This document shows, piece after piece, positions 7,824 through 29,751 of a stretch of 64,000 nt of DNA (position 1 is the first letter of the stretch; every line of letters begins with the position of its first letter). The DNA is from Herbiconiux moechotypicola (GTDB taxonomy: Bacteria > Actinomycetota > Actinomycetes > Actinomycetales > Microbacteriaceae): the NCBI RefSeq assembly GCF_024979255.1, contig NZ_JANLCN010000005.1, positions 186,001 to 250,000 on the forward strand, written 5' to 3'. Below the pieces are notes generated by a model that saw only the letters and a list, made by a program, of their open reading frames with translations, was not told the origin of the DNA and did not search any database. Both the position numbers and the translations under genes were made by a program.

Positions 7824-8599
7824 GTGTGGCCGCCCCCGGAGGCGTCCGTCGTCAGGGCGGCGTCCATCGCGGCCAGGGTGTCGCGGAGCGCGGAAAGGTC
7901 TGCGTCGGCCGCGGTGGCCGCGGTGGCGGGCGGGGCGGCCTCGTAGAGGGCGAGGTCGGCGGAGAGGTTGGTGCGGGCGCCCGTCAGGGCGGCCCGCAGG
8001 GCGGCGTGTGCGACGGCGACGTCGGCGGCCACGGCGGGATTGCCCTCGCGGGAGAGCCAGTCGAGATCAGGCAGGAGCGCGAGTGCCGCCCCTCCAAGCG
8101 CGGCCGACGAGCGTGCGCCACCCAGGGCCGCCACCCTCACGGCGGCGTGGTGGTGGTCGGTTCCGGGCGGAAGCGCGAACGCCGAGCTGAACGCCCCCGA
8201 TGCCTCCGCGTCGGAGTCGGCCAACTGCAACGCCTTCTCACGCAACGCCGCGACCCGCTCAGCGACTGCCCGCCTAGCGGCCTCCCATCCGCCGTGTCGG
8301 CCGCCCGCCCCCTGGTCGGCGCCGATGGTCGTGCTCTGCTCGCCGCCGCTGATCGCGCCGTCGCCGCAGCCGCTGGAGGCACCTTCGTCCCCGTCGGTGG
8401 CTGCACCGTCGTCCCCGCCGACGGGTGCGCCCTCGAACTTCGCGGGCGCACTGTATCCCGCCACCATTCCCGCGAGCGATGCCGCGAACGCCAGCATCAC
8501 GGCGGACGCCGCACCTCCTCCGGGATCCCCGTGAGGCTCCGACAGCGTCCGAACCCACGCCGCCACGCTCGCGGTCTCCACCCGCGCCGCAGTGCTCAC
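7814..8599 (-). CDS. Cyclodeaminase/cyclohydrolase-family (FTCD_C-like) protein
   Basis: About 261 residues from a GTG start that overlaps the upstream stop (GTGA); AGGAGG lies 13 nt upstream. The first ~40 residues carry the family hallmark (WVRTLSEPHGDPGGGAASA followed by an Ala/Met-rich helix), as in formimidoyltransferase-cyclodeaminase C-domains and methenyl-THF cyclohydrolase FchA. A roughly 50-residue Gly/Asp/Ser-rich low-complexity insert (about residues 50-95) follows before the helical bundle resumes (AVAERVAALREKALQLAD). A folate-linked deaminase or cyclohydrolase activity is the family expectation only. It is the last gene of a four-gene minus-strand cluster, and its C-terminal TSA and stop codon come from the hairpin repeat. 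Confidence 0.75.
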   Translation of the reverse strand: MSTAARVETASVAAWVRTLSEPHGDPGGGAASAVMLAFAASLAGMVAGYSAPAKFEGAPVGGDDGAATDGDEGASSGCGDGAISGGEQSTTIGADQGAGGRHGGWEAARRAVAERVAALREKALQLADSDAEASGAFSSAFALPPGTDHHHAAVRVAALGGARSSAALGGAALALLPDLDWLSREGNPAVAADVAVAHAALRAALTGARTNLSADLALYEAAPPATAATAADADLSALRDTLAAMDAALTTDASGGGHTSA

Positions 8600-9226: not shown

Positions 9227-10396
9227 TCAGGAACCTCGGAGGGTCGACCCCGAACCCGGGCCCGAACCCGAACCCGCGCCCGGCCCCGAGCCCGCGACCG
9301 GCACCGCCTCCACCTGCGCCGCCGCCCGCGCCACCGCCTCCGCCTGGTGCGGCCACAGCTCTTGCCCGTACCCCTCGATCGCCGGCAGGAACGGGTCGAC
9401 CACCGGCGTGCGCACCCCGCTCAGCGCCTCCACGATCGCGAGCCCGCAGAACGGCACCACGAACGGCGAGTATCCGCCCTCGTGCGCCATCACGAGCCGC
9501 CCGTCGCAGAGCTCCTCGGCCAGCGCCTTGATGCGCCCCGCCATCATGCGGAACGACTCCGAGTGCAGCATCTGCCGCGCCAGCGGGTCCATCCCGTTGC
9601 CGTCGAGCCCGCTCGCCACCAGGATGAGCGACGGCGCGAACCGCCGCAGCGCCGGCTCGACCACCTCGGTGAAGACGGCGTCGTACGCTCCGTGACCCGA
9701 CCCGGGCGGCAGCGGCACGTTGAGGTTGGTGCCCTCGGCCCCGGATGCGCCCAGCTCGCCGAGCGCACCCGAACCGGGTGGGTAGGCACCATCCTGGTGG
9801 ATCGACAGCGTGAGCACCGACGGGTCGTTCCAGAACGCGTCCTGCGTGCCGTTGCCGTGGTGCACGTCCCAGTCCACGATCGCCACCCGTTCCGCCCCGC
9901 GCACCTCCCGCGCATAGCGCGCGGCGACGGCCACGTTGTTGAAGATGCAGAACCCCCACCCGGTCTCGGGCGAGGCGTGGTGGCCCGGGGGACGCACGAG
10001 CGCGTAGGCGTTGTCGGCCACCCCGTCGAACACGGCATCGACCCCCGCGATCACCCCGCCCGCAGCGAGCAGCGCGATGTCGTACGACTCCCGCCCGAAC
10101 GGGCTCGAGTCGTCGCCCGCGTCACCGCGCCCGGTGGCGGCGTCGGCGGCGATCCGCTCTCGATGGGCCCGCGTGTGCACGCGCTCGATGTCCGTCTCCG
10201 TCGCCCGTCGCGCCGGCACCGGCACGAGCTGGGCGAGCAATCCGGATGCGGCGACCAGGTTCGCGAAGCGCCGCTTGGCCGAGGGCCCCTCGATGTGCTC
10301 CATCGGCTCGATCCACCCGCCGGCCGGCAGCGGCCCCGCCCCGGTGCCGGTGTCGTGCCACATGTACTTCTCATCCCAGATCCATGCCGTGCTCAT
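9227..10396 (-). CDS. Class II histone-deacetylase-like / acetylpolyamine amidohydrolase
   Basis: 389 residues with the arginase-deacetylase fold. The zinc site is intact: Asp177 and His179 in DWDVHHGNG and Asp265 in the ASGLDGNGMDPL loop, with the charge-relay PPGHH at 136-140 and Gly-rich loop later. Bacterial members remove acetyl groups from polyamines, other amines or proteins. The start at 10396 lies next to the ATTGTCAACAA operator, and a GACAAT element overlapping it ends 8 nt before the ATG, so the transcript may be leaderless. The last ~25 residues are a Gly/Ser/Pro tail encoded by short CCCGAA/CCCGGG repeats. It is divergent from the HpaB operon and probably shares its FCD-GntR control. 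Confidence 0.9.
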   Translation of the reverse strand: MSTAWIWDEKYMWHDTGTGAGPLPAGGWIEPMEHIEGPSAKRRFANLVAASGLLAQLVPVPARRATETDIERVHTRAHRERIAADAATGRGDAGDDSSPFGRESYDIALLAAGGVIAGVDAVFDGVADNAYALVRPPGHHASPETGWGFCIFNNVAVAARYAREVRGAERVAIVDWDVHHGNGTQDAFWNDPSVLTLSIHQDGAYPPGSGALGELGASGAEGTNLNVPLPPGSGHGAYDAVFTEVVEPALRRFAPSLILVASGLDGNGMDPLARQMLHSESFRMMAGRIKALAEELCDGRLVMAHEGGYSPFVVPFCGLAIVEALSGVRTPVVDPFLPAIEGYGQELWPHQAEAVARAAAQVEAVPVAGSGPGAGSGSGPGSGSTLRGS

Positions 10397-16354: not shown

Positions 16355-17787
16355 GCACCCCCGTCAACTTCACCCCCACCATCGACCCCGAGAAGGGCCG
16401 CGACCTCACCCGCGAGGTCGCCTCCTTCGTGCTCGACACCCCGCGCGAGGCCGTGCCCGAGAACGTCGTGGCGCTCGCGAAGTCGTCCATCCTCGACGGT
16501 CTGGGCCTCGCGCTCTCCGGTTCGGTCGCCGAGTCGGGCCAGATCGTGAAGGGCTACCTCGAGGCCACCGGGGTCGTCGGCTCGGGCACCACCACCGTCA
16601 TCGGCACCGACCTCAAGGTCTCGCCCCGCTTCGCCGCCTTCGCCAACGGCGTCGCCATCCACGCCGACGACTACGACGACACCCAGCTCGCCGTGGCCGA
16701 GGACCGCGTCTACGGTCTGCTCACCCACCCCACCGCCCCGGCCCTGCCGGCGGCGCTCGCCGTCTCGGAGCAGCTCGGCGCAGGCGGCACCGAGCTGCTC
16801 ATGGCCTACCTCGTGGGCGTCGACGTGGAGTGCAAGATCGCCGAGGCCATCTCGCCCCGCCACTACCAGCACGGCTTCCACGCCACGGCCACCTGCGGCC
16901 CCTTCGCCAGCGCCAGCGCGGCGAGCCGCCTGCGCGGCTCCGACCTCGAGACCACGCAGCGCGCCCTCTCCATCGCGGGCAGCCAGTCGGCGGGTCTGCG
17001 CGAGAACTTCGGCACCATGACGAAGCCGTTCCACGCCGGCCGCGCCGCCGAGGCCGGCGTGGTGGCCACCGACTTCGCGCGGGCCGGCTGGAGCGCGAGC
17101 CCCGAGATCCTCGAGGCACCGCGCGGCTTCTTCCAGGCGGCGGGCGGCGGCTATGACGAGGCCGCCATCCGCGGTCAGCTCGGCCACCCGTGGACCTTCG
17201 CCGACCCCGGCGTCTCCATCAAGCCGCACCCCTCCGGCTCGCTCACCCACCCCGCCATGACCGAGATGCTGCGTCTCATCAAAGCGAACGACCTCCACAT
17301 CGACGACGTGAAGCACGTCAAGGTGGGCACCAACCACAACATGCCGAACGCCCTCATCCACCACCGGCCCGTGAACGAGCTGCAGGCCAAGTTCTCGATG
17401 GAGTTCTGCATGGCGATCCTGCTGCTCGAGCGCCGCGCGGGCCTGAACGAGTTCACCGACGAGGTGGTGAACCGGCCCGACGTGAAGGCCGCCATCGAGA
17501 AGGTCGAGTTCTGGGTGCACCCCGAGGCCGAGGCCGACGGTTACGCGAAGATGACGTCGATCATCGACATCGAGCTGAACGACGGCACCGTCATCTCGGG
17601 CCGCAGCGCCTTCGGCAAGGGCAGCCCGGCCGACCCGATGAGCTACGGCGAGGTGGCCGAGAAGTTCCGCGGCTGCGCCGAGTTCGCGGGGTGGGATGCG
17701 GGCAAGGCCGACGAGATCGTGGCGGTCGTCGCCGAGCTCGAGTCGCTCACCGACGTCGCGGCCCTCACCGCGCTCGTGAGCAGGTGA
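16351..17787 (+). CDS. MmgE/PrpD-family dehydratase/isomerase
   Basis: 478 residues, the normal family length. N-terminal all-helical domain (ALAKSSILDGLGLALSG, AFANGVAIHADDYDDTQ) and C-terminal domain (GVSIKPHPSGSLTHPAM, FSMEFCMAILLLERRAG) match the MmgE/PrpD family, which includes 2-methylcitrate dehydratase, cis-aconitate decarboxylase and iminodisuccinate epimerase. These enzymes act on di- and tricarboxylates. Here it probably dehydrates or epimerises the acid released by the amidases before the dehydrogenase at 21879 acts. No prpB/prpC genes are near, so a methylcitrate role is unlikely. Confidence 0.9.
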   Translation: MSTPVNFTPTIDPEKGRDLTREVASFVLDTPREAVPENVVALAKSSILDGLGLALSGSVAESGQIVKGYLEATGVVGSGTTTVIGTDLKVSPRFAAFANGVAIHADDYDDTQLAVAEDRVYGLLTHPTAPALPAALAVSEQLGAGGTELLMAYLVGVDVECKIAEAISPRHYQHGFHATATCGPFASASAASRLRGSDLETTQRALSIAGSQSAGLRENFGTMTKPFHAGRAAEAGVVATDFARAGWSASPEILEAPRGFFQAAGGGYDEAAIRGQLGHPWTFADPGVSIKPHPSGSLTHPAMTEMLRLIKANDLHIDDVKHVKVGTNHNMPNALIHHRPVNELQAKFSMEFCMAILLLERRAGLNEFTDEVVNRPDVKAAIEKVEFWVHPEAEADGYAKMTSIIDIELNDGTVISGRSAFGKGSPADPMSYGEVAEKFRGCAEFAGWDAGKADEIVAVVAELESLTDVAALTALVSR

Positions 17788-19292
17788 GCGCCGTGCACGA
17801 CCCCGCCCGCGACACGGCGCGCGACCCGGCTCACGACTCCGAGGCCGCCCTCACGGCGCTCGAGGACGCGGTGCGGCGCGAGCTCGACATCACCGCCTAC
17901 CCCCGCCCCGAGTGGCTCACCGCCCAGGAGTTCGCCGGCCGACCGGTGCGCGACGTGCTCATCGTGGGCGGCGGCCAGGGCGGCCTCACCGCCGCCTTCG
18001 CCCTGCGCCGCCGCGCCATCACCAACGTCGAGATCGTCGACACCGCGCCCGCCGGCAAGGAGGGCCCCTGGGTCACCTACGCCCGCATGCACACCCTCCG
18101 CACCCCGAAGGGCCTCACCGGCCCCGACCAGGGCCTGCCGAGCCTCACCCCCGAGAGCTGGTACCGCGCCCGCTTCGGCGACACGGCCTGGAACGACCTC
18201 GTGCACATCGACCGGCACCACTGGCAGGAGTACCTCGGCTGGTATCGACGGGTGACGGATGCGCGGGTGCGCAACGAGACCACGGTCACCTCGATCACGC
18301 CCGCGGCGCTCGAGCCCGGAGCCCCGCTCGCGGTGCAGCTCGACACCCCCGACGGCCCCGAGACGGTGTTCGCCCGCCGTGTGGTGCTCGCCACCGGCCT
18401 CGCCGGCAACGGCGCCTGGACGGCACCCGCCTTCATCCGCGAGGCGCTCCCCGAGGGGCGCTACAACCACACCGGCGAGGAGCTCGACTTCAGCGCCTTC
18501 GCCGGCAAGCGGCTGGGCGTGCTCGGCGGCGGCGCCTCGGCCTTCGACTACGCGGCCTCCGCGCTGGAGGCGGGAGCCGCCTCCGTCGACCTGTTCTACC
18601 GCCGCGCCGAGATCCCGCGCGTGAACCCGTTCCGCTGGATGGAGTTCTACGCCTTCGGCGCGCACTTCCCCGACCTGCCCGACGCCGACAAGTGGCGCTA
18701 CACGGTGCGCTTCAACCAGACCAACCAGCCGCCGCCCCAGCCCACCTGGTACCGCTGCATGCGGCATGAGACGTTCACGCCGCACACGGGCTCCCCGTGG
18801 ACCTCGATCGGGCTGGGGGCCGACGACCGCATCCGGGTCACCACCCCCGAGGCCTCGTTCGAGTTCGACCACGTGATCGCCGCGACCGGCCCCACCGTCG
18901 ACCTCGCCGCGCGCCCCGAGCTGGCCGAGCTCGCACCCCGGGTGGCCCTCTGGCGGCACCGCTTCACCCCGCCGGCCGAGTGGCAGGATGCGTCGTTGCT
19001 CGACTACCCCTACCTCGGTTCGGGCTTCGAGTTCGTGGCCCGTGAGCCGGGTCGGGCATCCTGGGTCACCCGGGTGAGCGACTTCACCTACGGCGCCCGG
19101 CTCTCGATGGGCCTGAACGGCAACATGAACTCGGGGCTCGGAGCCGGCGGCAGACGGCTCGCCGACGCGCTCAGCCGCTCGCTCTTCCTCGAAGATAGAG
19201 AGGCGTTCTTCGACAGCTACCGTGCTTTCGACGTGCGCGAGCTGGTCGATCTCGGCCGGCCCGCCGACGCCGCCCTTCCCGAGGTCGACTGA
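17784..19292 (+). CDS. FAD/NAD(P)-dependent monooxygenase-like oxidoreductase
   Basis: About 502 residues. Two dinucleotide-binding folds are visible: VLIVGGGQGGLTAAFAL near residue 60 (FAD) and LGVLGGGASAFDYAASAL near residue 248 (NADPH), as in flavin-containing and Baeyer-Villiger monooxygenases and related lysine/ornithine hydroxylases. The consensus FMO fingerprint is not evident, so the reaction is uncertain. The GTG at 17784 overlaps the previous stop; a second GTG at 17793 is an alternative. The roughly 45-residue polar N-terminus (VHDPARDTARDPAHDSE) precedes the fold. It is the last gene in the unbroken overlap chain; a 40-bp gap follows. Confidence 0.82.
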   Translation: MSAVHDPARDTARDPAHDSEAALTALEDAVRRELDITAYPRPEWLTAQEFAGRPVRDVLIVGGGQGGLTAAFALRRRAITNVEIVDTAPAGKEGPWVTYARMHTLRTPKGLTGPDQGLPSLTPESWYRARFGDTAWNDLVHIDRHHWQEYLGWYRRVTDARVRNETTVTSITPAALEPGAPLAVQLDTPDGPETVFARRVVLATGLAGNGAWTAPAFIREALPEGRYNHTGEELDFSAFAGKRLGVLGGGASAFDYAASALEAGAASVDLFYRRAEIPRVNPFRWMEFYAFGAHFPDLPDADKWRYTVRFNQTNQPPPQPTWYRCMRHETFTPHTGSPWTSIGLGADDRIRVTTPEASFEFDHVIAATGPTVDLAARPELAELAPRVALWRHRFTPPAEWQDASLLDYPYLGSGFEFVAREPGRASWVTRVSDFTYGARLSMGLNGNMNSGLGAGGRRLADALSRSLFLEDREAFFDSYRAFDVRELVDLGRPADAALPEVD

Positions 19293-20245: not shown

Positions 20246-21844
20246 GTGAGAGTCGTCGTCGCGGGCGGGCTCGTGCTCACGGCCGACCACGGGTCGACCG
20301 CCGAGCTCGACCTGCTCGTCGACGACGGCGTCATCGTGGCGACGGGCCCCTGGGGTTCGTTCGCCGCGGCCGACGGCTCGGTGCAGGCCGAGGTGATCGA
20401 CGCATCCGGATGTCTCGTGACTCCCGGCTTCGTCAACGGCCACACCCATAGCCACTCCGGCATACTCAAGGGCATCGCCCGTGAGTGGACCCTCGAACAC
20501 TCCCTCACCCACGGCGCCTGGATGGCCTCCGCCCGCTCCGACGAGCTCACCCGCCTCTCCGCCCTCCTCACCGCCACCGAACTCCTCTCCTCCGGCTGCA
20601 CCGCCCTCTTCGACCTCCACTCCCGCACCCCCACCCCCACCCTCGAAGCCATCCACCTCACCGCCACCGCCTACGCCACCACCGGCATCCGCGCCACCCT
20701 CGCCCCCATGGTCTCCGACCGCCCCCTCCCCGCCTCCCTCCCCTTCCTCCACCAAGGCTGCGGCGATCCGGGCATCCCCTCGTCCCCCTCGCAGCCGGTT
20801 GATTCCGACCAAGCTGGGGAGTTGGGGGTTGGGGGTCCCGGTGTGGCGGGCGTCCTCGGGCAGGACCCCCAACCCCCAACTCCCCAGCGCCCCCCCGAAC
20901 AACCAAACACGGCACACATCCTCGAAACCTGCACCGCCCTCATCGAATCCTGGCCCTACGACCCGACCTTCCTCACCCCCGCCCTAGCCCCCACGATCCC
21001 CGCCCACTGCACCCCCACCCTCACCCAAGGCCTCGCGACCCTGGCCCGCTCCCACGACCTCCGCCTCCACACCCACCTGGCCGAGTCCAAGCCCCAGGCC
21101 CTGGCCGGCGAACACTACTTCGGTCGCTCCATCACGGCCGAGCTCGACCGTCTCGGCGTGCTCGGCCCGTGGCTCACGGCCGCGCATTCCATCTGGACGA
21201 GCCCGGCCGACAACGAGCTGCTGGGCTCTGCCGGGGTGACCGCGGTGACGGTTCCGGCGAGCAACCTGCGCCTGGGTTCGGGGGTGCAGGACTCACGGGG
21301 GCTGCTCGACGCCGGTGTGGGGCTCGCGATCGGCACCGACGGGGCGAACTCCTCGGACGCGCTCGACATGGTGGACGGCATCCGGCTCACCGCTCTGCTC
21401 TCGCGGGTGTCGGAGCGACCGGCAGGGGAGTGGCTGACGGTGCAGGAGGTGCTGCGCGCGGCGACGGCCGGTGGCGCGGCGGCGCTCGGGCGCGCAGACG
21501 ACCTCGGGGTGATCGCGCCGGGTTTCGCGGCCGACCTGGTGCTGCACGATCTCTCGGCGGTCACCTACGTTCCGCGCACCGATGTGCTCAACCAGCTCGT
21601 GACCGCCGGGCGTGCCGTCGACGTGCGCACGGTGCTCGTGGCGGGGCGCGTCGTCTACGACCGCGGCGCGTGGCCCGGGCTCGACGTGCCCGCGCTTCGC
21701 GCGCGGGCCACGGAGCTCGCCGCCGAGTACCTCGAGCGGGCCGCCCCCGCCCGCGCCGAGAGCACGACGCTCCTCGAGGCCTCCGCCGACTCGCTCGCCG
21801 CCGCCCGCCGGGCCCCGTGGCACACGCGACGACTTCTCCCCTAG
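20246..21844 (+). CDS. Amidohydrolase, guanine/8-oxoguanine-deaminase-like, with insertion
   Basis: About 532 residues from a GTG 13 bp after the previous stop. Metal ligands are intact: HTHSHS (near residue 62), LRLHTHLAE, TAAHSIWTS and IGTDGANSSD. This is the mononuclear deaminase branch (cytosine, guanine, 8-oxoguanine, aminotriazine). Between PLPASLPFL and TAHILETC is a Gly/Pro/Asp/Gln-rich stretch of roughly 50 residues not expected in the fold; it contains a 26-bp-arm DNA palindrome in frame. The DNA from about 20455 to 21115 is also extremely C-rich on this strand, with TCC, CTC and ACC codons, unlike its surroundings. Whether the enzyme still folds well is open, although the frame is uninterrupted. 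Confidence 0.85.
   Translation: MRVVVAGGLVLTADHGSTAELDLLVDDGVIVATGPWGSFAAADGSVQAEVIDASGCLVTPGFVNGHTHSHSGILKGIAREWTLEHSLTHGAWMASARSDELTRLSALLTATELLSSGCTALFDLHSRTPTPTLEAIHLTATAYATTGIRATLAPMVSDRPLPASLPFLHQGCGDPGIPSSPSQPVDSDQAGELGVGGPGVAGVLGQDPQPPTPQRPPEQPNTAHILETCTALIESWPYDPTFLTPALAPTIPAHCTPTLTQGLATLARSHDLRLHTHLAESKPQALAGEHYFGRSITAELDRLGVLGPWLTAAHSIWTSPADNELLGSAGVTAVTVPASNLRLGSGVQDSRGLLDAGVGLAIGTDGANSSDALDMVDGIRLTALLSRVSERPAGEWLTVQEVLRAATAGGAAALGRADDLGVIAPGFAADLVLHDLSAVTYVPRTDVLNQLVTAGRAVDVRTVLVAGRVVYDRGAWPGLDVPALRARATELAAEYLERAAPARAESTTLLEASADSLAAARRAPWHTRRLLP
20813..20888. repeat. Long palindrome inserted in frame inside an amidohydrolase gene
   Basis: Perfect 26-bp arms 20813-20838 (beginning GCTGGGGAGTTGGGGG) and 20863-20888 with a 24-bp loop. 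The element is translated as low-complexity GELGVGGPG ... QDPQPPTPQ sequence between two conserved segments of the enzyme. The flanks hold a second, shorter inverted pair (GGCTGCG near 20756 and CGCAGCC near 20791). It looks like a palindromic element tolerated in a surface loop. Confidence 0.85.
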
Positions 21845-22938: not shown

Positions 22939-23682
22939 ATGCAGAGAGATTCCTCGCACGTGTCTGACAAGGTGTCGCTGGATGACCGGCTCCGCGACGT
23001 GTGGCGGCGCGCGGCCGAGGAGGGCACCTCGATGCCGGGGGAGTCGACCCTCGCCCTCGACCTCGAGATGAGCCGGCCCGCCGTGCGGGAGGCGCTCGTG
23101 CGGCTGGAGGAGCGCGGCTACATCCGGCGCCGCAAGGGCGCCGACACGGTGGTGAACACGTCGCTCCTGAACATCCCGGCACGGTTCGACCGCCAGGTGG
23201 ACAAGCTCGAGCTGATCCGGTCGACCGGGCGCGATCCGGGGGTGGAGGTGCTCTCTCACGAGATCACGCCGATCACCGTCGATGAGGCCGTCGAGTTCGA
23301 GGTCGCACCCGGCACCCCGGTGCTCCGCCTCACCAAGCTCTGGACGGCCGACGGGAGGCCCGTCATGCTGGCCCGGGACTGCGTGCCGCTCGCCGGTCGG
23401 CGAGCCGTCGGCTACGACCCCTCCGAGTCGATCTTCAGCCTCGCCCTGTCGCTCGGTCACGAGCACATCGAGTGGGAGGTGGTCTGGCCGGGCGCCGACG
23501 TGCTGAGCGAGGCCGATGCCCGGGCGCTCGGCCGTCCCGAAGGCGAGGCGGTGCTCACGGTCGAGCTCACGGGGGTGGGCCGCTCCGGTCGCACGGGCTA
23601 CTGGTCGTCGGAACTGCACGTGAAGGGCGCCCTGCGCTACGCCATGGTGCGCTCGGTGAAGGTCGACCGCGGCGAGCGCTGA
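22939..23682 (+). CDS. GntR-family regulator, HutC/UTRA type
   Basis: 247 residues: winged helix in the first ~75 residues (LRDVWRRAAEEGTSMPGEST, ALDLEMSRPAVREALVRLEE, GYIRRRKGADTVV) and a UTRA ligand-binding domain (VLRLTKLWTADGRPVMLARD, LTVELTGVGRSGRTGYWSS). A TAGCCT hexamer at 22926-22931 ends 7 nt before the ATG, so besides read-through from the operon it can have its own leaderless promoter. It is followed by the two-site operator at 23707-23738 before the luciferase-like operon, and near-identical sites precede the binding-protein gene at 29689; both are its probable targets. Confidence 0.92.
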   Translation: MQRDSSHVSDKVSLDDRLRDVWRRAAEEGTSMPGESTLALDLEMSRPAVREALVRLEERGYIRRRKGADTVVNTSLLNIPARFDRQVDKLELIRSTGRDPGVEVLSHEITPITVDEAVEFEVAPGTPVLRLTKLWTADGRPVMLARDCVPLAGRRAVGYDPSESIFSLALSLGHEHIEWEVVWPGADVLSEADARALGRPEGEAVLTVELTGVGRSGRTGYWSSELHVKGALRYAMVRSVKVDRGER

Positions 23683-23706
23683 CCGGCTGCACTTCCGTGT
23701 GCAACC

Positions 23707-23738
23707 TGTCTTACATGTGATACTCTCTTTGTAAGACA
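23707..23738. promoter_or_regulatory. Paired TGT-N3-ACA operator upstream of luciferase-like operon
   Basis: TGTCTTACA (23707-23715) and TGTAAGACA (23730-23738) are perfect inverted copies of each other, start 23 bp apart, and each is a TGT-N3-ACA half-palindrome. A GATACT hexamer (23719-23724) between them could be a -10. The second site ends 13 bp before the ATG at 23752, so bound regulator would block transcription. The adjacent UTRA-type GntR is the natural candidate. Confidence 0.65.
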
Positions 23739-23751
23739 TGAGGGGAGCGCG

Positions 23752-24783
23752 ATGAGCGACAGGATCGACCACGGCATCCTCGACCAGCAGTGGGGCGTGC
23801 GCGGCCAGAGCGACGCAGAACAACTGCGTAAGACACTCGACGACGCCCTGCTCGCCGAGGAGCTGGGCTACGACTCCTACCTCCTCGGGGAGCACCACCT
23901 GGCGAAGCCCGCCGAGGCGTTCTCCTCGCGCATCCCGTGGCCCGAGCTGGTGGTGTCGCACCTGGCCGCCCTCACCGACTCGCTGCGCATCGGCACCGGG
24001 GTGAAGGTGCTCTCGCTCGACGCCGCCTGGCGCACGGCGGAGATGATGCTCACGCTCGACCTGGTGACAGGAGGCCGAGCTCTCTTCGGTCTCGGTGCGG
24101 GCGGCGACGAGCCCGAGATCTTCCGCGACGCGGCGGTGGGGGCGGATGCGCGGCGGTGGCTCTTCCGCGACCGCCTCGGCGAGCTCCTCGAGCTGCTGCG
24201 CAGTGACGGGCGGTCGGCCTTCTCGCGTGAGCTCTCCCCGGTCGGAGACGCCGCTTCGCTCGTGTCGCGCATCCTGGTGGCGGCCCGCGACGACGAGACG
24301 ATCGCGCTGGCCGCCCGCGAGCAGCTCGGCTTCGTGATGGGTCAGGCCGAACCCGCCGCCACCTCGCTGCAGTACGCCGACCGCTATCGCGCCCACGGCG
24401 GAACCGGCGAGGTGCGGCTGGTGCGCATCGTGCACGTCGCCGCGACCGACGCGCTCGCGCTCGAGTCGGTCACCCCGGCGTACCGGCTCTACTCCTCGTA
24501 CTTCCTCGGCCTCCGCTACTACCAGGAGGCGGTGGCGCGGCTGTACCCCACCCCGATGCCGGTCGACCTCGCCGACGGACTCGACCGGATGTGCTTCGTC
24601 GTCGGCGGCCCCGAGCGGGTGGCGCGCCGCCTCGCCGAGGAGGGTCGGGCCTCGGGTGCGTCGCGCATAGACATACTCGTCGACATCCCCGGGCTGAGCA
24701 CCGCCCAGCGCCACGAGTCCCTGCGTCTGTTCGCCCGCGAGGTCGCCCCGGCCCTGCGGCCCGCTCTCGAAAGGATCCCCTGA
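23752..24783 (+). CDS. Luciferase-like (LLM) flavin-dependent monooxygenase 1
   Basis: 343 residues of the bacterial-luciferase TIM-barrel type: YDSYLLGEHHLAKPAEAF, LAALTDSLRIGTGVKVLSL, AEMMLTLDLVTGGRALFGLGAG are the usual flavin and substrate loop regions. Family members use FMNH2 or F420 for oxygenation or ring cleavage, including of pyrimidines and alkanesulfonates. It is the first gene of a four-gene operon under the TGT-N3-ACA operator, with AGGGGAG upstream of the ATG. Its stop shares one base with the next start (TGATG). Confidence 0.88.
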   Translation: MSDRIDHGILDQQWGVRGQSDAEQLRKTLDDALLAEELGYDSYLLGEHHLAKPAEAFSSRIPWPELVVSHLAALTDSLRIGTGVKVLSLDAAWRTAEMMLTLDLVTGGRALFGLGAGGDEPEIFRDAAVGADARRWLFRDRLGELLELLRSDGRSAFSRELSPVGDAASLVSRILVAARDDETIALAAREQLGFVMGQAEPAATSLQYADRYRAHGGTGEVRLVRIVHVAATDALALESVTPAYRLYSSYFLGLRYYQEAVARLYPTPMPVDLADGLDRMCFVVGGPERVARRLAEEGRASGASRIDILVDIPGLSTAQRHESLRLFAREVAPALRPALERIP

Positions 24784-25280
24784 TGTCCGGTACCACGCAT
24801 CCCTTCATCGCCCGCCCGGTGACCGCCGAGGGCTTCGCGCGGTTCGGCGAACTGCTCGCCCCGGGGGAGGATGGAGCGCCGCCGAGCGCCGCCGAGAGCG
24901 CGCTCGACCTGTCGCAGGGGGCTCCTCGCTTCTATCTCATGGAGCTCGAGGACAAGCCGGCGCGATTCCGGTCGCTCACCAGGCACCGTCGTGTGACGCA
25001 GGTTCTCGCGTCGGTGGGTGGGGGCGAGTGGCTCCTCGCCGTGGCCGCTCCCACGGGAGAGGGAGACGACGACCCGCGACCGGGGCTCGCCGACGTCGCG
25101 GCGTTCCGCATCCCGGGCGACGTGGCCGTGCTGCTGCACCGCGGCACCTGGCACGCGGGCCCCTACTTCGACGGCGAACGGATGTCGTTCTTCAACCTCG
25201 AGCTCGCCGACACCAACGTGGTCGACCACCAGTCCCATCCGGTGGCCGGTGACGGGATCTGCACGATCGAGGCGTCGTGA
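24783..25280 (+). CDS. Ureidoglycolate lyase-like (AllA family) cupin
   Basis: 165 residues. The segments LTRHRRVTQVLASVGGGEWLL, VAAFRIPGDVAVLLHRGTWHAGPYFDGERMSFFNLELADTN (the family core, quoted here in pieces: RIPGDV, HRGTWHAGPYF, FFNLELADTN) and the final VDHQSH match AllA ureidoglycolate lyases, small beta-barrel enzymes that split ureidoglycolate into glyoxylate and urea. No allantoicase or allantoate amidohydrolase lies nearby, so it may act on a related ureido or amido acid from this pathway. It is translationally coupled to the luciferase-like gene before it; the next gene starts 4 bp after its stop. Confidence 0.85.
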   Translation: MSGTTHPFIARPVTAEGFARFGELLAPGEDGAPPSAAESALDLSQGAPRFYLMELEDKPARFRSLTRHRRVTQVLASVGGGEWLLAVAAPTGEGDDDPRPGLADVAAFRIPGDVAVLLHRGTWHAGPYFDGERMSFFNLELADTNVVDHQSHPVAGDGICTIEAS

Positions 25281-25284
25281 ACGC

Positions 25285-26118
25285 ATGATCGCCGTGAACG
25301 TCATGCCGGTCGACGCGCTCCAGGTCGTGCGCGCGGCGCAGAGCGCCGAGGCGGCCGGCGTGCCCACCCTCGTGCTGCCCGACAACGGCGCGCGCACGCG
25401 CGACGGGTGGGTGGCACTCGGTGCGGCGGCGATGTGCACCGACCGGATGCGGCTGGGCCTCATCACGAACCCGTTCACGCGCCGGCCCGAGGTCACCGCG
25501 GGGGCACTGGCCACGCTCGACGAGGTCAGCGGTGGCCGAGGGCTGCTGATACTCTCCGCCGGTGGCGCCTACCAGCTGGCGAGCATGGGGGCGCAGCGCT
25601 CGCAACCGCTCGACGCGCTGGCCGAGTCGATCGCGATCGTACGCGACCGTCACCCCGCCGGCCGGCTGTGGCTGGCCACGAAGGGACCGAAGACACTCGA
25701 GCTGGCCGCCGCGCGAGCCGATGGCGTGCTGCTGTCGGGCATCCCGTTCTCGTTGCTCGGTGGGCTCGTGCTGGCGCTGCGCGAGCAGGCACCCGCCCTC
25801 ACCGTGGCGCTGACGCTGCACCATCGATTCGACGAGGCGAGCGATCTGGCCTCTCGCGAGAGGGTGGTCTACGAGCTGCTGAACATGAGGCCCGAGTATC
25901 GCGAGGCGGCCGGGGTGCCGGGAGCGCTCGTGAGCGAGGTGTCCGCCGCGGTCGCCGAGGCGGGGCCTGTCGCTGCGGCCGCCCTGGTGCCGGAACGGGT
26001 GATCGCCGAGTTCTGCCTCGACGGACCGCGCAACGAGGTGGTCGCCCGGGCCGAGGCCCTCGCGCGCGACACCGGCCTCGACGAAGTCGTGCTGCCCGAA
26101 CGCTCGCTGCTACCGTGA
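25285..26118 (+). CDS. Luciferase-like (LLM) flavin-dependent oxidoreductase 2
   Basis: 277 residues, shorter than the first LLM protein and lacking a long N-terminal strand. Recognisable segments are AQSAEAAGVPTLVLPDNG, MRLGLITNPFTRRPEVTAGALATLDEVSGGR and the late DGVLLSGIP strand, as in F420-dependent LLM oxidoreductases. Two LLM enzymes in one operon suggest either two redox steps or a heterodimer like LuxAB. It starts 4 bp after the cupin stop, and its own stop overlaps the following GTG (GTGA). Confidence 0.82.
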   Translation: MIAVNVMPVDALQVVRAAQSAEAAGVPTLVLPDNGARTRDGWVALGAAAMCTDRMRLGLITNPFTRRPEVTAGALATLDEVSGGRGLLILSAGGAYQLASMGAQRSQPLDALAESIAIVRDRHPAGRLWLATKGPKTLELAAARADGVLLSGIPFSLLGGLVLALREQAPALTVALTLHHRFDEASDLASRERVVYELLNMRPEYREAAGVPGALVSEVSAAVAEAGPVAAAALVPERVIAEFCLDGPRNEVVARAEALARDTGLDEVVLPERSLLP

Positions 26119-27143
26119 CCGCGACCGTGACCGCTTCCGCCCCCGCCTCGCCGCTCCGGGTCGGCTGGATGCACGCCAACTCCGTGCGCGACTGGTGGGG
26201 CCACGGTCACGATCGCGCCCGGCGGGCGGCCGAACGCCGGTTCGGCGCCCGCATCCGCACCGAGGTGCTCGACGAGCTGGGCGACGGCGACGGCTGGAGC
26301 GCGGCCGCCGACTCCCTGGCGTCGCGCGCATCCCTGGTCTTCGTCTGCGACGTCACCGTCACCGATCGCCTGGAGCGAGTGGCGGCCTCTCACCCGACCA
26401 CCCGATTCGTGCACTGTCAGGGCCGTCGTCCCTCGGCCAACGTGGCGACATATCGGGCAGCGCGCGACGAGCACGCTTTCGTCTCGGGGATGCTCGCCGG
26501 CGCCGCCACCCGCACAGGTCGGCTGGGCCTCGTGGAAGGTGCGCGTTCGGCGCACGATCTGCTCTATACGAACGCGTGGATCCTGGGGGCGCTGCGCAGC
26601 GCACCGGATGCACGGATCGAGCTGCGGTGGCTCGGCACCTACCATGCGCCCGACCAGGCGGAGAGGGAGCGTGCTGCGGTGGCGGAGTTGATCGCCGCCG
26701 GCGTGGACGTGATCGGGGGGAACCTGGCCGAGAATCCGGCGGTCGTCGCAGCGGCGGGTGAGGGTGGGGCGTTGGTGACCGCGCACGACGATCGCCTCAG
26801 TCACCTTCCGCAGGTGCTCGACGCCTCGTATCTCGAGTGGAGCCCGTACGTGATCCGCTCGATCGCGGCGGTGCTCGACGGCACGTGGAGCGCGCGTGAC
26901 GACTATCTGCGGGCCTCCGACGGTGTGGTGCTCAACACGCCGCCCGCGCCGTGGCTGCCTGAGCGGGCGCGGACGCGGGCGAACGACGTCGCTTCCGCGA
27001 TCCGTGCCGGCCGTTTCGACATCTGGGCGGGGCCGATCCGTGATCAGGCGGGTGAACTCGTGGTACCTGCCGGATCGAGGCTCACCGAGGAATATCTCGA
27101 CTCCGACCGCCTCGACTGGATCGCCGGCTCCGTCACCGACTGA
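26115..27143 (+). CDS. BMP-family (PnrA/TmpC-like) ligand-binding protein without signal peptide
   Basis: 342 residues starting GTG, coupled to the LLM gene. The body matches basic membrane protein/PnrA nucleoside-binding proteins: VGWMHANSVRDWWGHGHDRA, ATYRAARDEHAFVSGMLAGAATRTGRLGLVEG, RWLGTYHAPDQAERERAAVAELIAAGVDVIGGN (in pieces FVSGMLAGA, LIAAGVDVIGGN). Normal members are secreted lipoproteins of ABC importers for purine nucleosides. Here the first 20 residues (VTATVTASAPASPLRVGWMH) contain no Lys/Arg plus hydrophobic core and no lipobox cysteine, so the protein appears cytosolic. No cognate ATPase or permease is present. It may be an intracellular ligand sensor or an enzyme derived from the binding fold. 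Confidence 0.82.
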   Translation: MTATVTASAPASPLRVGWMHANSVRDWWGHGHDRARRAAERRFGARIRTEVLDELGDGDGWSAAADSLASRASLVFVCDVTVTDRLERVAASHPTTRFVHCQGRRPSANVATYRAARDEHAFVSGMLAGAATRTGRLGLVEGARSAHDLLYTNAWILGALRSAPDARIELRWLGTYHAPDQAERERAAVAELIAAGVDVIGGNLAENPAVVAAAGEGGALVTAHDDRLSHLPQVLDASYLEWSPYVIRSIAAVLDGTWSARDDYLRASDGVVLNTPPAPWLPERARTRANDVASAIRAGRFDIWAGPIRDQAGELVVPAGSRLTEEYLDSDRLDWIAGSVTD

Positions 27144-27168
27144 GTCGCCGGCTCCGTCGTCGTTCGGC

Positions 27169-28470
27169 TCACGCCACGCGATCGAGCTTGCCGGGGTTCA
27201 GCAGTCCCGCGGGGTCGGTGCGGAGTGCGAGGTCGATCGTGCGCCGCACCTCGAAGTCGACTTTCGACTGGTGGGGGCTGTGCGAGCGCACCCCCAGGGC
27301 GGCCAGGCGGTCATAGCCCTCGAGCACTGTCCGTTCATCGCGGTACGGGGCCACGAGCATCCCGAGCGGCGCGGGGTTCATGGCCTCGAGGTGCAGCGAT
27401 GCGCCCGGGTAGACCGCGAGCACCTCGTCGAGGCGGTCGACGATCGCGTGACCGTTGACCTCGACATGGAACAGCCGCGAGGGCGACGACTTCTGCAACC
27501 ACTCGATCGGGTGGTTGTAGGAGATCATGCTGAGGCGCACCGTGTCCTGCGGGCTGTCGCGCACCGCCTCGACCGTGCCGCCGTGCTCGCGGATGAGCTC
27601 CTCGGCCTCGGCGAGGGCGGCGGCGTCGACGATCGCCCTGAAGGAGGCGCGGTCGGACGGGATCGCGGGGTCGGAGGGCAGCGCGCCGGCGATCTCGGCG
27701 GGGTCGGCCGACACGAGACGCGGTGTGGGGTGCAGCGCCGCCAGGGGTCGCAGCGCTGCGGCCGCCCGGGGGAGGTCGTCGAAGGAGGCGTAGAGCGCGC
27801 ACCACGGCTGCAGCGGCTCGAGGGCGATCGTGGCGCGCAGGATGACTCCGGCCGTGCCGTAGTTGTGGAGATACGCCTGGGCGGCTTCACCCTCCACGTG
27901 GTGCACGCCCTCACCGCTCGCGTGCACCACGTCGAGCGCGAGCACGAAGTGCCCCGAGGTCGTGAGACCGTGGGCGATCGACCCGGTGCCCCCCGAGCCG
28001 CCGGAGAGGAAGCCCCCGACGGTCGACTGCGCCGTGGAGGGGTACATCAGCACCTGCTGCCCTGCGGCTCGGGCAGCCTGCTCGAGGGTGATCATCGTCA
28101 CGCCCGCCTCCACCGTCATCCGGCCCTCGCCCACCTCGAGGATGCGACGGCAGCGCGAGAGGTCGAGCACGAGGCCGCCGTGCGTGGGGATGGCCTGGCC
28201 GTAGTTGCCGGTGCCCTTCCCCCGCGGTGTCACGGCGACCCCGTGCCGCACGCAGGCGGTCACCACGGCGGCGGCGTCATCGGCCGTTGCCGGGGTGACC
28301 ACCACGTCGGCGGCACCGAGGGGGAGCTTGTCGGAGAGGATCGGCGACAGTCGCGCGCCGTCGACCGAGGCCTTGGCGAGAGCCGCGGGCTCGGTCGACA
28401 CGGCCCGGTCGCCGAGGAGTGCGCGCAGCTCGAGCTCGAGGGCGCGGAGACGGGTGGACTCGAACGGCAT
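27169..28470 (-). CDS. FAD-linked oxidase (GlcD/PCMH type)
   Basis: 433 residues with a PCMH-type FAD domain in the first ~220: VVVTPATADDAAAVVTACVRHGVAVTPRG, KGTGNYGQAIPTHGGLVLDL, MYPSTAQSTVGGFLSGGSGG and GTAGVILRATIALEP. The C-terminal part is the FAD-linked oxidase cap, ending RTDPAGLLNPGKLDRV as in glycolate and lactate oxidases (DPxGxLNPGK). It would oxidise a 2-hydroxy acid or related alcohol. It is convergent with the BMP gene across a 25-bp gap and lies downstream of the binding-protein gene, with which it probably forms a two-gene operon. Confidence 0.88.
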   Translation of the reverse strand: MPFESTRLRALELELRALLGDRAVSTEPAALAKASVDGARLSPILSDKLPLGAADVVVTPATADDAAAVVTACVRHGVAVTPRGKGTGNYGQAIPTHGGLVLDLSRCRRILEVGEGRMTVEAGVTMITLEQAARAAGQQVLMYPSTAQSTVGGFLSGGSGGTGSIAHGLTTSGHFVLALDVVHASGEGVHHVEGEAAQAYLHNYGTAGVILRATIALEPLQPWCALYASFDDLPRAAAALRPLAALHPTPRLVSADPAEIAGALPSDPAIPSDRASFRAIVDAAALAEAEELIREHGGTVEAVRDSPQDTVRLSMISYNHPIEWLQKSSPSRLFHVEVNGHAIVDRLDEVLAVYPGASLHLEAMNPAPLGMLVAPYRDERTVLEGYDRLAALGVRSHSPHQSKVDFEVRRTIDLALRTDPAGLLNPGKLDRVA

Positions 28471-28525
28471 GCGGCATTCCTTCGCTCGGTGCGGGGAGGG
28501 GAGGGAGCTGGGAGGGTCGGCGCGG

Positions 28526-29689
28526 TCAGTCGACCGGCAGGCCGATCGAGGGGTCGATGAACTCGTTGGTGACGAGGTCGTCGGCGGTCAGGCCGTCCGC
28601 GGGTGCCGTTCCCAGGGTCGCGAACACGGGCGTCACCTTCTCGAGCAGGTCGTTCACGCGGTCGAGGTCGAAGTCGCCCAGGGTCTCGTCGTCGCCGTTG
28701 CCCGCGAGACCGAGCTCGAGCTGGGTGGCCACCGAGTAGTCGGCGACGTCGTGGCTGTAGACCCAGCCGGTGTCGTACTGCTCCACGAGGTCGATGATGA
28801 GCGCGTTCGTCGCATCCGGGTCGGCGTAGTAGTCGACCGAGGCCTGTTGCAGAACCGGCACGAGCGCCGAGAGGCAGGCGCTGTCCTCCTCGAGCGCGTC
28901 GGCCCGCACCGACACGGTCTGCATGTAGTTCGTGTACCCGCTGTCGTTCACGAGCGAGTACGCGACGGGCTTCATCCAGTCGGCGATCTCGTGCTCGTAG
29001 ATGTAGGGCTCGGCGGAGGCGAAGCCCTGTTGGGCGCTCGCCCCCTGGGCCGCGACGAAGCTCGCCGGCGTTCCGTCGTAGGAGCCGTCGGCCTGGTTCT
29101 CCGGCACGATGCCCGCGGCCTTGAGGTACTCCATGTAGGCAGAACCCTCGAAGTAGCGGATGGTCGCGCCGTCGGCGACGATGTCGGCGATCGTCTCGGC
29201 TCCGGGGTAGCTCTCCGGATCCCACATGATCATCTGAGGGCTGATGTCGAGCGGGGCGAAGACGGCGACGGTCGGCATCTCGGTGGACTGCTGGATCGAC
29301 TCGTCGGTCGAGACGTACCCCAGCATGATGTCGGGGTCGGTGTAGAGCTGACTCGAGACCGACTGGAATCCGATCGCCGGGCCGCCCGCCCTGATCTCGA
29401 TGTCGACGCCGGTGAACTCACCCCCGGAGTAGAGCGGGCCCGACACCGCCTTCTTCGAGGCGTCGATCGCGGGGTTCGGGCCGAGCAGCTGGTAGAGGTG
29501 GCCGTGCTCGGCCTCGGGATTCCAGTCGGTCTGCACGATGACGGTCGAGGGGCAGACCCCGGAGAGGTCGACCGCGCCGACGGCCGCGGTGGCAGAGGGC
29601 TGCGACGCCGTGCCGGAGCTGCTGCAGCCGGAGAGAGCGATCGCGGCGACGGTGACAGGGGCGAGGGCGAGGAGACGAGCGTGACGCAT
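28526..29689 (-). CDS. ABC-transporter substrate-binding lipoprotein (NMT1/TauA-like), orphan
   Basis: 387 residues with a lipoprotein signal: MRHARLLALAPVTVAAIALSGC, cleaved at LSGC (Cys22), then a Ser/Thr/Ala linker. The mature part has the type II periplasmic-binding features of the nitrate/sulfonate/thiamin-precursor group (VIVQTDWNPEAEHG, IEIRAGGPAIGFQS, EYLKAAGIVPENQ). TDWNPEAEHG resembles the TDWxPxxxHxG start of the NMT1-like pyrimidine and riboflavin-precursor binders. No permease or ATPase gene is adjacent, so it must share components encoded elsewhere. Upstream lies a pair of TGT-N3-ACA sites identical in spacing to those before the luciferase-like operon. Confidence 0.88.
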   Translation of the reverse strand: MRHARLLALAPVTVAAIALSGCSSSGTASQPSATAAVGAVDLSGVCPSTVIVQTDWNPEAEHGHLYQLLGPNPAIDASKKAVSGPLYSGGEFTGVDIEIRAGGPAIGFQSVSSQLYTDPDIMLGYVSTDESIQQSTEMPTVAVFAPLDISPQMIMWDPESYPGAETIADIVADGATIRYFEGSAYMEYLKAAGIVPENQADGSYDGTPASFVAAQGASAQQGFASAEPYIYEHEIADWMKPVAYSLVNDSGYTNYMQTVSVRADALEEDSACLSALVPVLQQASVDYYADPDATNALIIDLVEQYDTGWVYSHDVADYSVATQLELGLAGNGDDETLGDFDLDRVNDLLEKVTPVFATLGTAPADGLTADDLVTNEFIDPSIGLPVD

Positions 29690-29719
29690 GAGGAGCTCCA
29701 GACGGGAAGGATCGACAGA

Positions 29720-29751
29720 TATATGACACTTGCTGGTGGAGATGTATGACA
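29720..29751. promoter_or_regulatory. Paired TGT-N3-ACA-type sites upstream of the binding-protein gene
   Basis: Direct 12-bp repeats AGATATATGACA (29717-29728) and AGATGTATGACA (29740-29751) differ at one base. Their cores TATATGACA (29720-29728) and TGTATGACA (29743-29751) match the TGT-N3-ACA word at 23707 and 23730 and have exactly the same 23-bp period. An AGATATCT palindrome follows at about 29763. This is the best evidence that one regulator, probably the UTRA GntR at 22939, controls uptake and catabolism together. Confidence 0.6.

Follow-up and report, generated by a model that had tools for sequence, protein, structure and literature searches.

Two pairs of TGT-N3-ACA sites in the 64,000 nt stretch of Herbiconiux moechotypicola DNA analysed here (the window) are very probably double operators of the UTRA-domain GntR regulator P0001, through which uptake and catabolism would be jointly controlled. 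One pair, operator A, precedes an operon that begins with the gene for a luciferase-like (LLM) monooxygenase, and the other, operator B, precedes a minus-strand binding-protein gene. An earlier note on this DNA had placed the four cores correctly, including the one mismatch at 29720, and was also right in giving both pairs a common period of 23 bp. The core mismatch in one of the B sites counts against our reading. The elements concerned are as follows.

23704..23718, plus strand: distal site of operator A, ACCTGTCTTACATGT, with core TGTCTTACA at 23707-23715
23727..23741, plus strand: proximal site of operator A, CTTTGTAAGACATGA, with core TGTAAGACA at 23730-23738, 23 bp downstream of the distal site and 13 bp before the LLM start codon
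29740..29754, minus strand: distal site of operator B, ACCTGTCATACATCT, with plus-strand core TGTATGACA at 29743-29751
29717..29731, minus strand: proximal site of operator B, AAGTGTCATATATCT, with plus-strand core TATATGACA at 29720-29728, one mismatch
22939..23682, plus strand: UTRA-domain GntR regulator P0001 (Pfam GntR and UTRA), proposed repressor of A and B

Read 5'-3' toward their genes, the two operators show the same order, a strong distal site followed 23 bp further on by a second site, so that A runs ACCTGTCTTACATGT - 8 bp - CTTTGTAAGACATGA and B runs ACCTGTCATACATCT - 8 bp - AAGTGTCATATATCT. The distal sites of A and B are identical at 13 of 15 positions and have ACCTGTCWTACATST in common; the 14-base form CCTGTCWTACATST has exact matches in the genome at these two sites only. 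Because the distal sites match to this extent, the flanks of the two pairs are related, contrary to what had been claimed for them. The geometry proposed in the earlier note, with two dimers on the same face two helical turns apart, also needs revision, since at 10.5 bp to the turn a period of 23 bp makes 2.2 turns, which leaves the sites some 70 degrees away from the same face, and relatives use periods of 22 and 24 bp. Strict same-face placement of the paired sites is therefore doubtful and would be approximate at best.

Single TGT-N3-ACA sites are unremarkable in the window (7 against 3.75 expected) and the claim therefore rests on the pairs. A scan of the 4.28-Mb genome for such pairs at a 23-bp period, as the earlier note had suggested, found, with at most one mismatch allowed and apart from an overlapping spur at 23730/23753, only A and B, and the reversed-pattern control gave 0 matches. 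No pair with a 22-bp period was found in the genome, and a 24-bp period gave four scattered matches against four in the control. Two single sites may be mentioned separately. Away from the A/B locus TGTCWTACA occurs only twice, once as TGTCATACA at position 50861 of contig C12 (L002 4962), a lone site before an amidohydrolase gene that could be a further single-site target of the regulator; the occurrence of TGTCATACA at position 164641 of contig C1 was rejected as a further site, as it looks coding. In the window, a single TGTCTGACA followed by AGG stands at 22961-22969, 22 bases after the regulator start codon, and its core is that of the Cellulomonas operator described below; it may be a chance occurrence in coding sequence.

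The proposed regulator has Pfam scores of 37.5 bits for GntR and 55.7 bits for UTRA, both over the cut-off, which place it by its domains in the HutC/UTRA subfamily. Its nearest relatives are found in Agreia pratensis (locus L083, from the same genome as L072), Microbacteriaceae bacterium 3FA27C10 (L086, the same as L065), Herbiconiux ginsengi (L111) and Cellulomonas sp. JH27-2 (L090). In a tree of 22 regulators, P0001 and these four form one side of a branch with support 98/94, P0001 itself lying on a long branch and being 35-40% identical to the other four. In all four relatives the regulator adjoins homologues of the lyase-like and FAD enzymes encoded in the window, and in two of the four an ABC transporter with a binding protein adjoins it as well. 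Our literature search found nothing on this gene set or on GntR regulators in Herbiconiux.

The intergenic regions of these relatives carry the same arrangement. Two ACTTGT-N3-ACAAGT palindromes 24 bp apart precede the lyase gene in 4/4 (with one core mismatch in L090), and in 3FA27C10 and H. ginsengi this pair lies between divergent operons. In the latter two genomes a pair with 22-bp spacing and one mismatch in the core also stands before the binding-protein/ABC transporter operon, and another, likewise at 22 bp, before a nucleoside hydrolase-PfkB-SLOG operon. The pattern CTTGT-N3-ACAAG occurs only 2 to 5 times per genome in the four relatives, and 11 of its 13 occurrences are at this locus. 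The sites of the window keep the TGT/ACA core and have lost the outer CT...AG of the relatives' sites. The spacing of the pairs is near-constant, 22-24 bp, before the putatively controlled operons of the window and the four relatives. Comparison of orthologous intergenic regions, in which the earlier note's reading predicted the pair, thus found it in four relatives, wherever a close P0001 homologue occurs.

We further scanned 76 loci with lyase homologues and found the pair upstream in 4/4 with a P0001-type regulator and in 0/72 without one; in a few of these loci the scanned stretch was not exactly the upstream region. By a hypergeometric count this association has a probability of about 8 in 10 million, the four positives being related actinobacteria. 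Elsewhere, across 391 kb comprising two XRE-cupin loci and the neighbourhoods of regulators from the same bacterial family, only the pairs already named were found and no false pair; where the module lies under an XRE-cupin regulator (L168 and L169), it has no pair. The choice of the UTRA-GntR at 22939 as the regulator, which the earlier note had made as the nearest candidate, is supported by this comparison. So are its proposals that the pairs are operators and that uptake and breakdown come under one control, the pair standing before both operons in two relatives; joint induction by the substrate is predicted.

The genes behind the operators and those of the surrounding module are listed below.

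23752..24783, plus strand: luciferase-like (LLM) monooxygenase (Pfam Bac_luciferase), first gene behind operator A
24783..25280, plus strand: ureidoglycolate-lyase-like protein (Pfam), with homologues behind the site pair in 4/4 relatives
25285..26118, plus strand: second luciferase-like (F420/FMN type) protein of the A operon (Pfam)
26115..27143, plus strand: Bmp/PnrA-fold protein (Pfam Bmp), last gene of the A operon
28526..29689, minus strand: binding protein P0003, a lipoprotein (lipobox LSGC in the translation), behind operator B
27169..28470, minus strand: FAD_binding_4 oxidase (Pfam), downstream of the binding-protein gene
17784..19292, plus strand: FAD/NAD-binding oxidoreductase of the same pathway module, with homologues after the lyase gene in L083, L086, L090 and L111
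12721..13947, plus strand: amidase of the same module (Pfam Amidase), with homologues after the FAD oxidoreductase in L086, L090 and L111

The last two belong to a long plus-strand gene series upstream, which has P0001 as its last gene and also includes an HpaB-type monooxygenase, an FCD GntR, amidases, two PuuE-like proteins and an amidohydrolase; the cluster in the window also has 8-oxoguanine-deaminase-like enzymes. No operator pair was found in the window before the series with the FAD oxidoreductase, the amidase and P0001, so these three genes are without an operator pair of their own. The amidohydrolase gene at 20246-21844 contains a perfect 26-bp inverted repeat with a 24-bp loop (20813-20888), through which it stays open and whose arm has no other copy in the genome. 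In L086 and L111 the genes for an ABC ATPase and permease follow the P0003 homologue; in the window, the transporter ATPase and permease genes do not adjoin P0003. In L168 and L169 a 64% identical homologue of P0003 is the first gene of an operon that also encodes the FAD oxidoreductase and the lyase, with the oxidoreductase homologue between binding protein and lyase; by gene order, P0003 and the enzyme genes belong to one functional module. P0003 has no Pfam or NCBIfam family and no similar solved structure, and its predicted structure, with a mean pLDDT of 38 (from an alignment of three rows), was set aside. The genome encodes five further copies of it, and of 299 genomes from the bacterial family 54 have a homologue.

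The pairs could be operators of a different GntR protein, such as the FCD (FadR-type) regulator P0004 at 12038, whose subfamily typically reads TNGTNNNACNA. P0004 has GntR and FCD domains and lies in the same gene series as P0001, and the N3 spacing of the sites is typical of FadR-type regulators (PMC4494728, PMC2230225). However, none of the gene calls next to the pairs in L083, L086, L090 and L111 matched P0004, where a P0001 homologue adjoins them in every case, the pair tracks the P0001-type regulator across the 76 loci, and the window sites are without the outer T and A of TNGTNNNACNA. We therefore regard an assignment to P0004 or another such GntR as improbable.

Two explanations that dispense with a repressor are less probable still. 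The two cores of A, TGTCTTACA and TGTAAGACA, lie 14 bp apart and each is the exact reverse complement of the other, which would suit an RNA hairpin or attenuator at A, with B an unrelated direct repeat. The two sites of B, however, are direct and not inverted copies, yet the B distal site matches that of A as closely as described above; each site in the relatives is itself a palindrome, in pairs with equal or different centres, and no terminator-like structure was found at A or B. Such an explanation is thus very improbable. We give least credence of all to chance, by which AT-rich intergenic DNA would have thrown up two similar pairs. Single sites are indeed no commoner than expected, but first-order Markov simulation of each intergenic stretch put the probability of one pair at a period of 22-24 bp at about 0.0003-0.0008 per stretch (0.00075 for A, 0.0003 for B), matches in the genome are confined to A and B, and four relatives have kept the arrangement. 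The earlier note's judgement that the common period was unlikely to have arisen by chance is borne out by these values and by the genome-wide confinement.

Assignment of A and B to P0001, the reading we prefer, invites comparison with known systems. Like the HutC repressors NagR and DasR with their dre-sites (PMC4333415, PMC4918961), P0001 combines a GntR wing-helix domain with a UTRA effector domain, its putative sites are palindromes with a GT...AC core before uptake and catabolic genes, and release by a pathway molecule would be expected. However, HutC-type sites mostly have four bases between GT and AC (GTMTAKAC, with published exceptions), whereas FadR-type sites mostly have three (PMC4494728). 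The sites in the window and the four relatives are GT-N3-AC and stand in close pairs of 22-24 bp, so that this UTRA clade departs from the four-base HutC rule. The likeness to the FadR subfamily, whose operator has been quoted as TNGTNNNACNA (PMC2230225), extends to the CTTGT-N3-ACAAG of the relatives, most of whose sites fit that pattern, and to a (V/I)REAL recognition helix; P0001 differs in having UTRA and not FCD, and in the window the pattern fits by its core at three of four sites and with its full outer T...A at none. In a survey of GntR divergons, neighbouring palindromes were found at a nearly constant distance and proposed to act together (PMC4494728). Our pairs resemble these in having two palindromes at a nearly constant distance, but those in the window precede single operons and not a divergon holding the regulator gene.

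The arrangement of A and B is thus real but ordinary in kind, as relatives carry the same; the one unusual point is the FadR-type GT-N3-AC spacing at the putative sites of a UTRA (HutC-type) regulator. P0001 and the four N3-type regulators have the recognition helix SR-x-x-(V/I)-R-E-A-L, and those remoter UTRA relatives whose helix could be read have, for the most part, (S/T)-R-x-Q-(V/L)-R-x-x-L; at twelve loci ACTTGT-N2-ACAAGT is found instead of the N3 form. We tentatively suggest, the balance leaning slightly against it, that within one UTRA group the half-site spacing changed with the recognition helix, (V/I)REAL going with TGT-N3-ACA pairs of 22-24 bp and QVR/QLR with CTTGT-N2-ACAAG, which in five genomes of the same genus occurs in pairs 105 bp apart. 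Those latter pairs, exactly 105 bp apart at L070 (17759/17864), L071 (17635/17740), L073 (12/117), L074 (17767/17872) and L078 (475/580), go with remoter P0001 homologues with a QVR-type helix, all in the genus of the window; the distance equals ten helical turns, which would suit a DNA loop, and shared descent of the intergenic region is a possible explanation. Two other UTRA-GntR homologues beside binding-protein operons, at L063 (about 8430-8460) and L066 (about 9365-9395), have in their intergenic regions a conserved GTAAGACCGGTTTATAAC, different from the A/B element.

UTRA-GntR proteins are usually dimeric repressors that are released by a small molecule, NagR being an example. Our current working model is that one repressor dimer would sit on each TGT-N3-ACA pseudo-palindrome and that two dimers about 23 bp apart, perhaps binding cooperatively, would lie over the promoter and start region of the LLM/lyase operon at A and of the binding-protein operon at B, blocking both operons until an inducer appears. 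Overlap with the promoter is assumed here, since a scan of A and B for sigma-70-like promoters recognised none. The inducer, a small molecule that the pathway either takes up or produces, would then bind the UTRA domain and release both pairs, so that uptake and breakdown would be switched on together. Besides the mismatched B core and the unrecognised promoters, several points given above count against the model: the 35-40% identity of P0001 to the other four regulators, the lost outer bases of the window sites, the gene series that no operator pair precedes, the separation of the ATPase and permease genes from P0003, and the relatedness of the four supporting genomes. The substrate is probably a pyrimidine-like N-heterocycle, and likely a pyrimidine- or purine-like ring compound, because among the regulon members of the relatives are a uracil-type permease and a pyrimidine-type nucleoside hydrolase, the former RutG/UraA-like and the latter closest to pyrimidine-specific models, all below curated cut-offs, and because PuuE-like and 8-oxoguanine-deaminase-like enzymes are encoded in the cluster of the window.

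A motif picked out by eye thus becomes a testable regulon, with one undescribed repressor and its putative operator in five genomes. Tying the enzymes and transporters of one regulon to one inducer would narrow the search for the substrate of the flavin-monooxygenase/lyase-like/amidase module. A FadR-spaced UTRA regulator beside UTRA relatives with N2 sites also offers material on the evolution of operator spacing and, if spacing and helix did change together, the UTRA group would provide a natural series in which to follow how GntR proteins change it.
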